A stretch of DNA of 33,319 nt from a bacterium (GTDB lineage Bacteria; Vulcanimicrobiota; Vulcanimicrobiia; Eremiobacterales; Eremiobacteraceae), in contig CADDZI010000027.1 in NCBI GenBank assembly GCA_902812405.1, forward strand, positions 1 through 33,319, read 5' to 3'. Below are positions 10,841 to 16,526 of this stretch, one piece after another (the first letter of the stretch is position 1; each line of letters begins with the position of its first letter). The notes under the pieces are model-generated. The model made no database searches and was not told the DNA's origin. It saw nothing but the letters and a program-made list of their open reading frames with translations. The translations under genes and the position numbers were made by a program.

Positions 10841-13800
10841 ATGGCGACGACACTAACCCGCCAAGAATTTCTCAAGCTCGGCGCTTTCGGCGCCGGGGTG
10901 CTTGGCTTTTCCGGGCTGGGATTTGACATGGCGGCTGCGACCGCCGTGAAGCGTGAGTTGCGGATTGCGGGTGCGACGGAGTCGCACTCCGTGTGTCCCT
11001 ACTGCGCTGTGGGCTGCTCGCTGATAGCCTACACGCGCCGCACGCCAGACGGACAAACCTCGCTCCTGCAGATCGAGGGTGATCCCGACAGCCCGATCAA
11101 CGAAGGTCGTCTCTGTCCAAAAGGCGCCACCGCTCTCGACCTGGCCGTGTCCCAACGCCGCGTCGAAAAGCCGCTCTACCGGGCGCCCGGCTCCACGCAG
11201 TGGCAGGAGATCTCGTGGGATGACGTTCTGGATCGCGTCGCCCGGCACATGAAAGAGTCACGGGACCGCACCTTCGTGCGCACAGATGCCAAAGGCAACG
11301 TTGTTAACCGCTGCGAGGGCATCGCATTTGCCGGGGGTGCCGCTTTTTCCAGCGAAGAGGGTTACTTCGCGACGAAGGTGATGCGTGGGCTGGGTCTCAC
11401 GCATTTGGAACAGCAGGCCAGGGTCTGACACGGCCCCACGGTCGTCAGTTTGGCGGCCACGTTCGGGCGAGGTGCCATGACCAATCACTGGCGCGACATT
11501 AAGAACGCCGACCTCATCCTCATCAACGGCGCGAATCCGGCGGAAGCGCACCCCGTCGGTTTCCAATGGTTCATGCACGCCAAGCTGGATCCGACCAAGG
11601 GTCCGGGACGCGGCGGAGGCGCCAAGATCATTCACTGCGACCCCCGCTTCTCCCGTACCTCGGCGGTGGCCGACATCTACGTCCGCATTCGGACCGGGAC
11701 GGATGTGGCGTACTTCGGCGGGCTTATCAACTACGTGCTGCAGCATAATCTGCAGCATGCGACCTACGTCGCCCACTACACCAACGCATCCTTCGTTGTC
11801 AAGGAAGGTTACGGATTCCACGACGGTCTGTTCAGCGGATATGATCCGGCCACGCGTACGTACAACCCGGCCTCCTGGGCGTACGAGAAAGGACCGGACG
11901 GTTTTGCCCTGCGCGATATGTCGCTACAACACCCGCGATGCGTCTTCCAGCTGCTCAAAGCGCACTACGCGCGCTACACGCCGGAGGTTGTGTCGGAGAT
12001 TACCGGCATCCCGGTGGAGGATTTCCTCAAGATCGCGGCCGTGGTGGGCGAGATGGGCCGGCCGGACAAGGTCATGACGATCGTCTATGCCGTCGGCCTC
12101 ACGCACCACACGACGGGTTCGCAGCTCATCCGGTCAGGTGCTGTCCTGCAGCTGTTGCTCGGGAACATGGGCCGTCCGGGCGGCGGCATGAACGCCGAGC
12201 GAGGCCACGCCAACATTCAGGGCAACACCGACCACGCCATTTCGTGGGAAATCCTGCCCGGCTATTTGGCGGTTCCCCTTCCAGGCGACGACACCATCGA
12301 CGCCTACATTGCCAAACACGCGCCGAAGAAACTGGATCCCCACGCCTGGAATTTCTTCGGAACCAACTACAAGAAGTTTCTCGTCAGCCTGCTCAAGGCG
12401 TGGTATGGCGATCACGCAACGCCGGCCAACGATTTTGCCTACGCCTACCTGCCCAAGCCGGAAGGCAACTGCTCGTGGCTTTCCATCTACGACGCGGCGC
12501 TGCGCGGCAAGATGGAGGGCATCATCCTCTCGGGCATGACCGCGACGAGCATCGGGCCGGACAGCAATCAGGTCCTGCAGGCGCTGGCCAGATTGAAGTG
12601 GCTGGTCGTCATGGACGCCTTCCCGACGACCAGCTCCGAATTTTGGCATGCGCCAGGAATGGACCCCACCGCCGTCCAGACCGAGGTCTTCCTGCTGCCC
12701 ACCACCCACTGGATCGAGAAGGACGGCTCGTTCACCAACAGCGGCCGCTGGGTGCAGTGGAAAGAGCAGGTTTTGCCGCCGCAGGGTCAGGCGCGGCATG
12801 ACCATTGGATTTTGGCCGACCTCCTGCACCGCGTGCGGGACCTGTACCAGCGCGAGGGTGGCGCTTTTGCGGATCCGGTCCTGAAGCTGACGCTGGACTA
12901 CAAGGATCCCCTGCACCCAACGCTCGACGAACTGGCACAGGAAATCAACGGCAAGGATCTGACGACCGGCAAGCGCTTGGCGACGTTCGCAAAACTCAAG
13001 GACGACGGGACGACGTCCGCGGGGGACTGGATCTACACCGGCAGCTATCCCGAGAAGGGCAACCTCGCCAAGCGTCGTAACGGCGTTCAGGACCCGGCTG
13101 CCAACGACCCCACCGGAATGGGATTCTATCCGGAGTGGGCGTGGAGTTGGCCGCTCAACCGGCGGGTCATGTACAACCGCGCCTCGGCCGACTTGGACGG
13201 CAGACCCTGGGATCCTAAGCGCCCGGGCATCGTATGGAACGGCGAGCGCTGGGTCGGCGATGTGCCGGATTACCCGCCGACGATGAGCCCGCACGATCCC
13301 AACGCGTGGCTGCCCTTTATCATGACCGGCGAAGGCGTCGGACGCTTGTTCTCCAACTCGCTCCTGGACGGTCCGCTGCCCGAGCACTACGAACCCATGG
13401 AGTCGCCGATCGTCAATCCGCTCCACCCGGCCGTCTCGGCGTCGCCGGTTGCCTTTCTCTACGACCGCGCCGCAGGCCGGTTGGATCGCTTTGGGACGCC
13501 GGACGAGTATCCCATCGTCGCGACGACCTACCGCCTGACCGAGCACGAACACTACGTGACGATGCAGATTCCGCGCCTCGTGCAGCTGCAACCCGAACCC
13601 TTCGTCGAGATGCCGGCCGGGCTGGCGCGAGAACGCGGCATTGCCAACGGCGACTGGGTGCGCGTGCGCTCCAAGCGCGGCATGATCGAGGTGCGGGCGC
13701 TTGTCACCAACCGCGCCGGGCAGCTGGACCTGGGCGGCAAAAAGGTGTGGCAGGTCGGCATCCCGATACACTGGGGATTCATCGGCGTGGCCGCCGAGAA

Positions 13801-13918
13801 GCATCCCGACCGCGCCCAGCACTGGCTGGCCAACGCCCTGACGCCCTTCGTCGGCGATGCGAATGCTCGAACGCCGGAGTTCAAATCCTTCCTCGTGCAG
13901 ATCGAGAAGGTCTCATGA
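10841..13918 (+). CDS. fdnG: Selenocysteine-containing formate dehydrogenase, catalytic subunit (FdnG/FdoG type)
   Basis: 1025 residues when the in-frame TGA at 11426-11428 is read as selenocysteine; otherwise the gene seems split (10841-11428 and 11450-13918). The Sec codon is residue 196 in the context QARV-U-HGPTV, the position of Sec196 in E. coli FdnG. An N-terminal [4Fe-4S] site is formed by Cys52, Cys55, Cys59 and Cys92. Then come ATFGRGAMTNHWRDIKNAD and the molybdopterin domains (AEAHPVGFQW, LLLGNMGRPGGGMNAERGH, NSGRWVQW) and the C-terminal cofactor domain (TYRLTEHEHY, PIHWGF, LTPFVGDANARTPEFKSFLV). It oxidises formate to CO2 at a Mo/W-bis-MGD site on the outer face of the membrane. 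The leader reads TRQEFLK, with Gln where the second Tat Arg is expected. The ATG at 10841 is preferred to a GTG at 10826. The stop overlaps fdhE (ATGA). Confidence 0.95.
11426..11458 (+). promoter_or_regulatory. SECIS element following the Sec UGA codon
   Basis: The UGA (11426-11428) is followed by an 11-base spacer, then a 7-bp stem (11440-11446 with 11452-11458, two G-U pairs) closing a five-base loop AGUUU. E. coli fdhF has the same arrangement: UGA, an 11-base spacer beginning CACGGCCC, and a stem-loop with a G-U in the loop that SelB recognises. The base sequence just after the UGA (CACGGCCC) is identical to fdhF as I recall it. selA, selB, selC and selD are not in the window. Confidence 0.85.
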
Positions 13919-14826
13919 ACGGCGCAGTTGCGGCGGCCACGCCCTTCGAGACGCGGCGAACCCGGACGCTTGCGCTGCGCGACCGCTGGCCCTTCGCTGC
14001 GGAGCTGGCGAATTTCGTGCTGCACGTGCTGGCAGCCCAAGAACGGGCCTTTGTCGCTGCTGCCGAGGCACACATCGACACCGGAGCCGCCGCGTTACGC
14101 TATGCGGCGAGCGAGATTTTCCCTGAGATGGCGCGCGTGGCTGCGGCGCACGGACCGCACGCCATGGCCCTCGGGGTGCAGAACGTTCTCGAAGCGCGGC
14201 CCGATCCGGAGCAGATCCTTGCGGCATGGCTGCGCGGCGAACAGGTGTCCGCCGTCGAGCACTTCCTGGCCCGAGCCGCTGCTGGGCCCGTGCTCGAAGT
14301 CATGGGACGGCGAGCCGCTGACGTCTGCGCTGCGGCCGGGGCGGTTCGCCCGGGTGAGGATGCGGCACGCCGGCACTGTCCACAGTGCTGGGGGCCGCCG
14401 CAGGTCAGCGTCTTCGACGCATCACCGGACGCGCTTGTGACGGGCCGACGCTCTTTGGAGTGCGCGCGGTGCGCCGCCCGCTGGCCCTTTGCCCGTCTGA
14501 CGTGCGCCGCGTGCGGCGAGACGGGCAATCGGATGCTCGAGATCTTCGCCGAGGAGGGCACGCTGGAGAGCGAGATGACGGGCCACCGGGTCAGGGGACG
14601 GGCCACACCTGAGGCTGCGGCAGCCTCTGTGGCGGCACCCCAGGCCCGGTTTGGGCACGTCAGGATCGACGCCTGCCACGCGTGCCGTTACTACATTCTC
14701 ACCGTCGATGCCGGACGCGACCCGCAGGCCGTGCCGGCCATCGACGACCTGCTGGCCTTGCCGCTGCATCTGTATGCGGCCGACGGCGGCTGGCGTCGCA
14801 TTGCACCAAACCTGATGGGGTTGTGA
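13915..14826 (+). CDS. fdhE: Formate dehydrogenase accessory protein FdhE
   Basis: 303 residues from the ATG at 13915, whose first bases overlap the catalytic-subunit stop (ATGA), so translation is coupled. The second half carries the rubredoxin-like CxxC pairs of FdhE: CPQC, CARC, CAAC and CHAC, each in a short beta-hairpin context (HCPQCWGPPQVSVF, LECARCAARWPFARLTCAAC). The N-terminal half is helical. FdhE binds iron and interacts with the catalytic subunit of respiratory formate dehydrogenases during maturation; in E. coli it follows fdoGHI. Here it lies between the catalytic and Fe-S subunit genes. About 30 residues between CAAC and CHAC (ESEMTGHRVRGRATPEAAAA) look like a family-variable insertion. 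Confidence 0.88.
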   Translation: MNGAVAAATPFETRRTRTLALRDRWPFAAELANFVLHVLAAQERAFVAAAEAHIDTGAAALRYAASEIFPEMARVAAAHGPHAMALGVQNVLEARPDPEQILAAWLRGEQVSAVEHFLARAAAGPVLEVMGRRAADVCAAAGAVRPGEDAARRHCPQCWGPPQVSVFDASPDALVTGRRSLECARCAARWPFARLTCAACGETGNRMLEIFAEEGTLESEMTGHRVRGRATPEAAAASVAAPQARFGHVRIDACHACRYYILTVDAGRDPQAVPAIDDLLALPLHLYAADGGWRRIAPNLMGL

Positions 14827-14829
14827 CAG

Positions 14830-15648
14830 ATGGCGGAACCGCTTGGTATGTTCACCGACACGAGCATCTGCATCGGCTGCAAGGCCTGTGAGGTGGCGTG
14901 TAAGGAATGGAACCAGTTGCCCGGCAACGAGCCGGAGTACCGCAACGACAGCTTCGACAATACGGGCGAGCTGGATGCCCAGAACTGGCGTCACGTCAAG
15001 TTCATCGACCGGGTTCCCGAGGCTCCCATGACCACGGGCAACGGTCAGGCCTGGCTGCTCATGTCCGATATTTGCAAGCACTGCCAGCATGCAAGTTGCA
15101 TGGAGGTCTGCCCGACCAACGCGATCATTCGGACGGAATTCGATACCGTGTACATCCAGCCGGACGTCTGCAACGGTTGCCGTGACTGCATCGCCGCCTG
15201 TCCCTACGGCGCCATCGGGTTCAATCCGAAAGACGGGCTGGCCCACAAATGCACCTTTTGCTACGACCGGCTGCAGGCCAACATGCCGCCGGCCTGCGCC
15301 AAAGCCTGCCCCACGCAATCCATCACCTTCGGCCCGCTGCGCGAGCTGCACAAGAAGGCGGATGAACGTGTGGCGACGCTGCGGGCTCAAGGGTACGACC
15401 AGGCCCAATTGTACGGACGGGACGCCTCGGTGTACGGCGGTCTCAACGCCTTCTTTCTCCTCATGGCCGAACCCGAGGTGTACGGATTGCCCAACGCGCG
15501 CAATGCCGTGTTGCCTCGGCGCAATAACCGGGGCGGTTACCTCGGTGTCCTTGTGAGCGCCGCGCTGGCGATGGTCGCCGGGATCGTCGCCTTGCGTCGC
15601 CGGGGATCCGACACTTTGCAGGACACAACGCCGGGCGAGGGTTCGTGA
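14830..15648 (+). CDS. fdnH: Formate dehydrogenase iron-sulfur (beta) subunit
   Basis: 272 residues; the ATG at 14830 follows the fdhE stop by three bases. Four [4Fe-4S] sites are visible: CIGCKACEVACKEW (Cys14-Cys24), CKHCQHASCMEVCP, CNGCRDCIAACPYG, and CTFCYDRLQANMPPACAKAC. This is the 16-Cys arrangement of FdnH/FdoH, which wires the Sec/Mo site to the membrane. A C-terminal transmembrane helix (YLGVLVSAALAMVAGIVAL) after an Arg-rich stretch should anchor it, as in E. coli FdnH. The segment AFFLLMAEPEVYGLP is the conserved loop just before this helix. Electrons would pass to the NrfD-type protein encoded next. Confidence 0.94.
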   Translation: MAEPLGMFTDTSICIGCKACEVACKEWNQLPGNEPEYRNDSFDNTGELDAQNWRHVKFIDRVPEAPMTTGNGQAWLLMSDICKHCQHASCMEVCPTNAIIRTEFDTVYIQPDVCNGCRDCIAACPYGAIGFNPKDGLAHKCTFCYDRLQANMPPACAKACPTQSITFGPLRELHKKADERVATLRAQGYDQAQLYGRDASVYGGLNAFFLLMAEPEVYGLPNARNAVLPRRNNRGGYLGVLVSAALAMVAGIVALRRRGSDTLQDTTPGEGS

Positions 15649-16526
15649 TGGCCGAACACTTCGTTCACCCGCCGCACTGGGAGGCCTACATCGTCACCTA
15701 CTTCTTCGCAGCCGGGCTGGCCGGCGGGTGTTATGTCCTGGCGACCCTGTTGTCGTTGACGGGGTATCCCGAAGACCGCGAGCCGGCGCGTCTCGGCTTT
15801 CTCGTGCCCTTCCCGCTCGTGCTCCTGTGCGCCCTCGTGCTCACCTTGGACTTGGGCCGCCCATGGCTTTTTTGGCACATGCTCGTCAACGCAACGCCGG
15901 GTGCCGGCGGCCTGAACTTCAAGTACTGGTCGCCCATGTCGGTCGGTGCTTGGGCCCTCTTGCTGTTTGGGGTTTTCTCGTTTGTCTCATTCCTCGGTGC
16001 GCTGCCGTGGGCGCGCCGGCCCGGGCCGTTGGCGGGCACAGCCGGACGTGCGTGGATGATCGCGGGTGCGCTGCTCGGACTGTACATCGCCTCCTATACC
16101 GGCGTGCTGTTGAGCGTCTCCAATCAGCCGGTGTGGAGCGATACCTGGACGTTGGGAGGCTTGTTCTTGGCATCCGGTTTGAGCGGATCGGCGGCGCTCT
16201 TGGCCTGGCTTGTGCGGCGGCGCGCCGCGGCGGGCAGCCCGGCGACGAGCTGGCAGCGCCTGCTGACGGCCGACGGATACTTTGCCCTCATCGAACTGCT
16301 CTTCATCGTTCTCTTCTTCGTCAGCGTCGGGTTTGCAGGGACGCTGGGTGTGGCGGTGCGCGGTGCATGGCTTGTGGCATGGATCCTCGTGCTTGCCAGT
16401 TTGGTGCCGGCATTGGCCGAGTTGGGCGGCCGCCGGGGTCTTGTGCATGCCGGCAGCGGGCCGCTCCTGGTCCTGGCCGGGGTTCTCCTCATGCGCATTG
16501 CGGTGGTGATCAGCGCGCAGATGTAA
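15648..16526 (+). CDS. nrfD: NrfD/PsrC-type membrane subunit of formate dehydrogenase
   Basis: 292 residues from the ATG at 15648, which shares one base with the fdnH stop (TGATG); a GTG one codon earlier is the alternative. It is very hydrophobic, with eight to nine predicted helices. The start HWEAYIVTYFFAAGLAGGCY, the LDLGRPWLFWHML motif and SPMSVGAWALLLFG are typical of NrfD/PsrC quinone-interacting subunits. This replaces the di-heme cytochrome b (FdnI) of the E. coli enzyme: there is no His-rich heme-b helix set and no fdnI gene. It probably transfers electrons from the Fe-S subunit to (mena)quinone. Last gene of the operon. Confidence 0.9.
   Translation: MAEHFVHPPHWEAYIVTYFFAAGLAGGCYVLATLLSLTGYPEDREPARLGFLVPFPLVLLCALVLTLDLGRPWLFWHMLVNATPGAGGLNFKYWSPMSVGAWALLLFGVFSFVSFLGALPWARRPGPLAGTAGRAWMIAGALLGLYIASYTGVLLSVSNQPVWSDTWTLGGLFLASGLSGSAALLAWLVRRRAAAGSPATSWQRLLTADGYFALIELLFIVLFFVSVGFAGTLGVAVRGAWLVAWILVLASLVPALAELGGRRGLVHAGSGPLLVLAGVLLMRIAVVISAQM

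Follow-up and report, generated by a model that had tools for sequence, protein, structure and literature searches.

Does the formate dehydrogenase (FDH) gene in this stretch of DNA, whose frame is interrupted by a TGA, represent a broken gene, or is the codon read as selenocysteine (Sec)? A preliminary description of the locus had proposed a selenocysteine formate dehydrogenase with a bacterial SECIS element, and with a covarying hairpin and a full Sec gene set this is the best reading. The product of the gene is almost certainly an FdnG-type respiratory formate dehydrogenase, associated with the membrane and with Sec as metal ligand, the UGA being recoded via SelB and the hairpin. Here we refer to the whole stretch analysed, 33,319 nucleotides from an Eremiobacterota (Vulcanimicrobiota) draft genome, as the window.

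A formate dehydrogenase frame with a single internal TGA

Direct reading of the fdnG-like frame on the plus strand (10841-13918) showed that its sole internal stop is the TGA at 11426-11428, codon 196, in the context QARV-U-HGPTV, and that the frame is otherwise intact over 1025 residues including the predicted Sec196, as had been claimed. The true stop of this frame is also TGA. The product, a formate dehydrogenase-N alpha subunit, matched TIGR01553 with 1305.2 bits (cut-off 814.2) over positions 2-1009 of the 1009 in the profile, and PF04879, PF00384 and PF01568 were each above cut-off, corresponding to the Fe4S4 (residues 48-100), molybdopterin (107-662) and dinucleotide-binding (894-1017) domains. 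Its best match among solved structures was E. coli FdnG (PDB 1KQF, 995 bits); codon 196 aligns with the modified Sec residue, an X in the 1KQF chain, confirming the earlier assignment of this codon to the Sec residue of E. coli FdnG. A Tat-like signal lies within 10841-10900 and reads TRQEFLK, which is not a strict twin arginine; relatives carry SRRDFLK, TRRGFL, SRQDFLK and TRGDFF. Several Eremiobacterota FDH copies have TRQ, SRQ or TRG in place of the strict twin arginine.

Taken alone, one stop codon in one draft assembly looks like an error, and the TGA could be a nonsense mutation or a sequencing error, the gene then being a pseudogene or a cysteine FDH that was wrongly assembled. We give this explanation practically no credence and, judging from the homologs, regard it as refuted: the same TGA occupies the Sec site in 21/21 aligned homologs, which come from independent genomes of Eremiobacterota, Actinomycetota, Chloroflexota and Acidobacteriota; in addition, the reading frame continues unbroken past the TGA, the SECIS shows covariation and the genome carries the Sec decoding genes. 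The TGA is retained in the close FDH homologs read, cysteine being found only in a distant Selenomonadales sequence (L053) and in one Eremiobacterota genome (G131). The latter homolog (L108:638-640), at 38% identity, has TGC at the Sec site within QGRACHAATT.

A covarying hairpin downstream of the TGA

Recoding of UGA as Sec would call for a SECIS element, and a candidate hairpin is present at 11440-11458 (plus strand), separated from the TGA by an 11-nt spacer, CACGGCCCCAC (11429-11439). Its 7-bp stem, which includes two G-U pairs, is formed by GGTCGTC (11440-11446) and GGCGGCC (11452-11458) and encloses a 5-nt loop, AGTTT (AGUUU in the RNA, 11447-11451), with a G in the apical loop. The whole element thus reads UGA-CACGGCCCCAC-GGUCGUC-AGUUU-GGCGGCC, and the spacer, stem and loop are exactly as first described. 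Among the 378 plus-strand TGAs in the window, only the one at 11426-11428 is followed by this exact 11-7-5-7 geometry, for which the background rate is ~0.16% of positions.

Because the sequence is GC-rich, the folding energy of the hairpin is ordinary (z = -0.23); we dropped this measure as uninformative, and support for the hairpin is therefore evolutionary. No Rfam model matched the window or the sel and FDH loci. Across 20 relatives, 98.6% of the hairpin pair cells are formed, with both sides changed in 14 cells, and the covariation score was reached by 0/500 shuffles. When the partners were slid by 1-3 columns as a control, pairing fell to 24-59%. Pair 18-30 is seen as GC, CG, AU and UA and pair 19-29 as GC and CG, while many of the stem changes are silent in the protein, with valine written GTG, GTC or GTA and alanine GCC, GCG or GCT. 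The loop codons vary little: serine is AGT in 21/21 homologs, compared with 67 of 1113 Ser codons (~6%) alignment-wide, and leucine is TTG in 19/21, compared with 197 of 1619 Leu codons (~12%). Covariation and loop codon conservation together give the predicted SECIS hairpin strong evolutionary support.

Selenocysteine decoding genes and a second selenocysteine formate dehydrogenase

The genome that contains the window (2.32 Mb in 110 contigs, 96.65% complete) was searched for the Sec decoding genes. The preliminary description had named selA, selB, selC and selD as the genes to look for and had made its reading depend on selB and selC; all four are present. The tRNA-Sec has the anticodon TCA (UCA) and scores 75.7 bits. 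SelA (533 bits) and SelB (332 bits) are tandem neighbours on contig C43, and SelB comprises a GTPase and a C-terminal winged helix (SelB-wing_3). SelD (370 bits) has an in-frame TGA of its own in the N-terminal active-site region, SCAGU. This SelD (contig C16, L018:1532-1534) is itself a predicted selenoprotein; a hairpin, CGCGAG-CGUG-CUCGCG, can be seen by eye ~14 nt past its UGA, though it is not the minimum-energy fold.

At least three genes of the genome contain an in-frame TGA, as might be expected if UGA had been reassigned to Trp or Cys, genome-wide or at codon 196, instead of encoding Sec. Such a reassignment is extremely improbable, as each of the three TGAs stands where a known selenoprotein family has Sec, the fdnG-like gene itself terminates in TGA, and tRNA-Sec with anticodon TCA, SelA and SelB are present.

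A second Sec-FDH is encoded on the minus strand of contig C45 (L107/L127), with the identical 11-7-5-7 hairpin geometry and a catalytic subunit that does not include the N-terminal Fe4S4 domain. Read by eye, the missing Fe4S4 stretch (CPYCGVGC...GHLCIKGRFGWQF) has a gene of its own, which follows a NuoE/NuoF-like fusion. We considered this locus as an oddity and rejected that view, as it is a split NAD-linked FDH with the Fe4S4 stretch encoded separately. Similar arrangements were observed in four other genomes (G017, G024, G026 and G048).

The operon and its proposed function

Three genes follow the alpha subunit on the plus strand. An fdhE-like accessory gene (13915-14826) matches TIGR01562 weakly (36.8 bits) and PF24860 above cut-off, and is placed by operon synteny. 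It is followed by an fdnH-like beta subunit (14830-15648), with ferredoxin-type Fe-S clusters and a hydrophobic C-terminal segment, and by an NrfD-type membrane subunit (15645-16526), which from family match and synteny is likely the quinone-side gamma subunit, replacing the cytochrome b FdnI. The order FDHalpha-FdhE-FdhB-NrfD is conserved in Eremiobacterota, Actinomycetota and Chloroflexota.

The sequence data show directly the gene with its UGA, a hairpin that is conserved and covaries, all the genes for Sec decoding and an operon of four genes in conserved order. From known homologs, we infer recoding in vivo, catalytic activity, the direction of electron flow and export. In the proposed mechanism, tRNA-Sec would be charged with serine, which SelA would convert using selenophosphate from SelD. 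SelB carrying Sec-tRNA-Sec would then bind the hairpin 11 nt downstream of UGA 196, so that selenocysteine would be delivered there instead of termination. Formate would be oxidised at a Mo/W-bisPGD centre with Sec as metal ligand, and electrons would travel via Fe-S clusters in both alpha and beta to the NrfD-type membrane subunit and on to the quinone pool.

Absence of detectable fdhD

In E. coli, FDH activity depends strictly on FdhD, which sulfurates the cofactor (PMC10609526). No FdhD (TIGR00129/PF02634) was found at E<=10 in the genome of the window, where Sec-FDHs are present, nor at E<=10 in the closed genome of Vulcanimicrobium alpinus (G118), despite its Sec-FDH; none was above cut-off in 12/13 other genomes of the same family (f1). 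Genomes outside the family that have the window-type FDH do carry fdhD, several of them directly beside the FDH gene.

Given these absences and the E. coli requirement, the Sec protein might be made and yet be inactive as a formate dehydrogenase, with no FdhD to sulfurate its molybdenum cofactor. This is very unlikely, since the whole operon and the SECIS are conserved and the role could be filled by a highly divergent FdhD or a different sulfurtransferase. FDH-expressing organisms without FdhD are noted in the same review (PMC10609526). We tentatively suggest, with more doubt than confidence, that the Sec-FDHs of this Eremiobacterota family and of V. alpinus may mature without FdhD. If so, Sec-FDH is not strictly FdhD-dependent, or an unrelated protein substitutes. 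The apparent absence of fdhD is the single aspect of this locus that deserves specialist attention.

Distribution in Eremiobacterota

SelA was above cut-off in 121/149 Eremiobacterota genomes. The phylum's full-length FDH homologs above 40% identity, among the matches listed, carry the TGA, and it was found at the Sec site in the phylum FDH loci read. The V. alpinus FDH has the UGA together with a perfect 7-bp hairpin; the published description of this organism (PMC9758169) does not mention "selen" or "formate". Judged from these genomes, Sec-FdnG is the rule in Eremiobacterota, and across bacteria it ranks among the most widespread selenoproteins (PMC5029168). Our searches of the open-access literature turned up no paper that mentions selenocysteine together with the phylum (as Eremiobacterota, Eremiobacteraeota or Vulcanimicrobiota). 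Our results document selenocysteine use as the norm across Eremiobacterota, a useful but modest record. As V. alpinus is cultured and encodes a Sec-FDH, it offers a direct test of recoding and of maturation without FdhD. Two phylum members show further stops, which probably reflect damage or errors in the drafts: an in-frame TGA in a SelA gene (G134, C21:69523-70815) and an additional TAG in an FDH gene (G104, C24:5731-8634).

Comparison with known systems

Within the phylum, the window-type FDH is the less common type, found in about 11 further genomes. In the FDH tree it groups with Actinomycetota and Chloroflexota members in a starred clade of 14 rows, far from the phylum-typical type; the copy from one genome of the same family is paired with one from Chloroflexota, and the partner row of the window belongs to another family. 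The phylum-typical Eremiobacterota Sec-FdnG, present in V. alpinus, forms a separate starred clade and is ~45% identical to that of the window, but has the same Sec site and an 11-7-5-7 hairpin, with the loop GGUCU. The FDHs of Nonomuraea solani (L021), a Thermoleophilaceae genome (L025) and Chloroflexi CF_28 (L026) are 70-71% identical to the window's and share its UGA, SECIS and four-gene order, even though these operons belong to other phyla, Actinomycetota and Chloroflexota. Since the housekeeping protein AccA is only 46-55% identical between these genomes and ours (for Nonomuraea, 46% against 71% for FDH), the whole selenoprotein operon, SECIS included, probably moved between phyla by horizontal transfer. 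Sec-FDH genes are documented to have moved between groups of bacteria (PMC1794560, PMC5029168).

With E. coli FdnG (1KQF, Sec196), the product shares an alignment over 5-1023 at 995 bits, the Sec site and HGPTV, as well as the combination of an alpha with an Fe-S beta subunit. The suggestion that the hairpin copies an E. coli SECIS holds for geometry and loop, as the fdnG stem of E. coli likewise begins after an 11-nt spacer and its loop, AGUCU, shares the pattern AGUYU with that of the window. It is not a copy, however: the fdnG hairpin has a different stem with an unpaired U, which the window hairpin pairs. The preliminary description had expected automated annotation to yield two truncated genes; in RefSeq, E. 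coli fdnG is annotated as one gene spanning its UGA. The operons also differ, in that no fdhD was detected in the genome of the window, the fdhE-like gene lies inside the operon, and the gamma subunit is NrfD-type, whereas that of E. coli FDH-N is the cytochrome b FdnI. Both the enzyme and the recoding mechanism are of a well-known kind, and what is new is only the wide use of both in Eremiobacterota.
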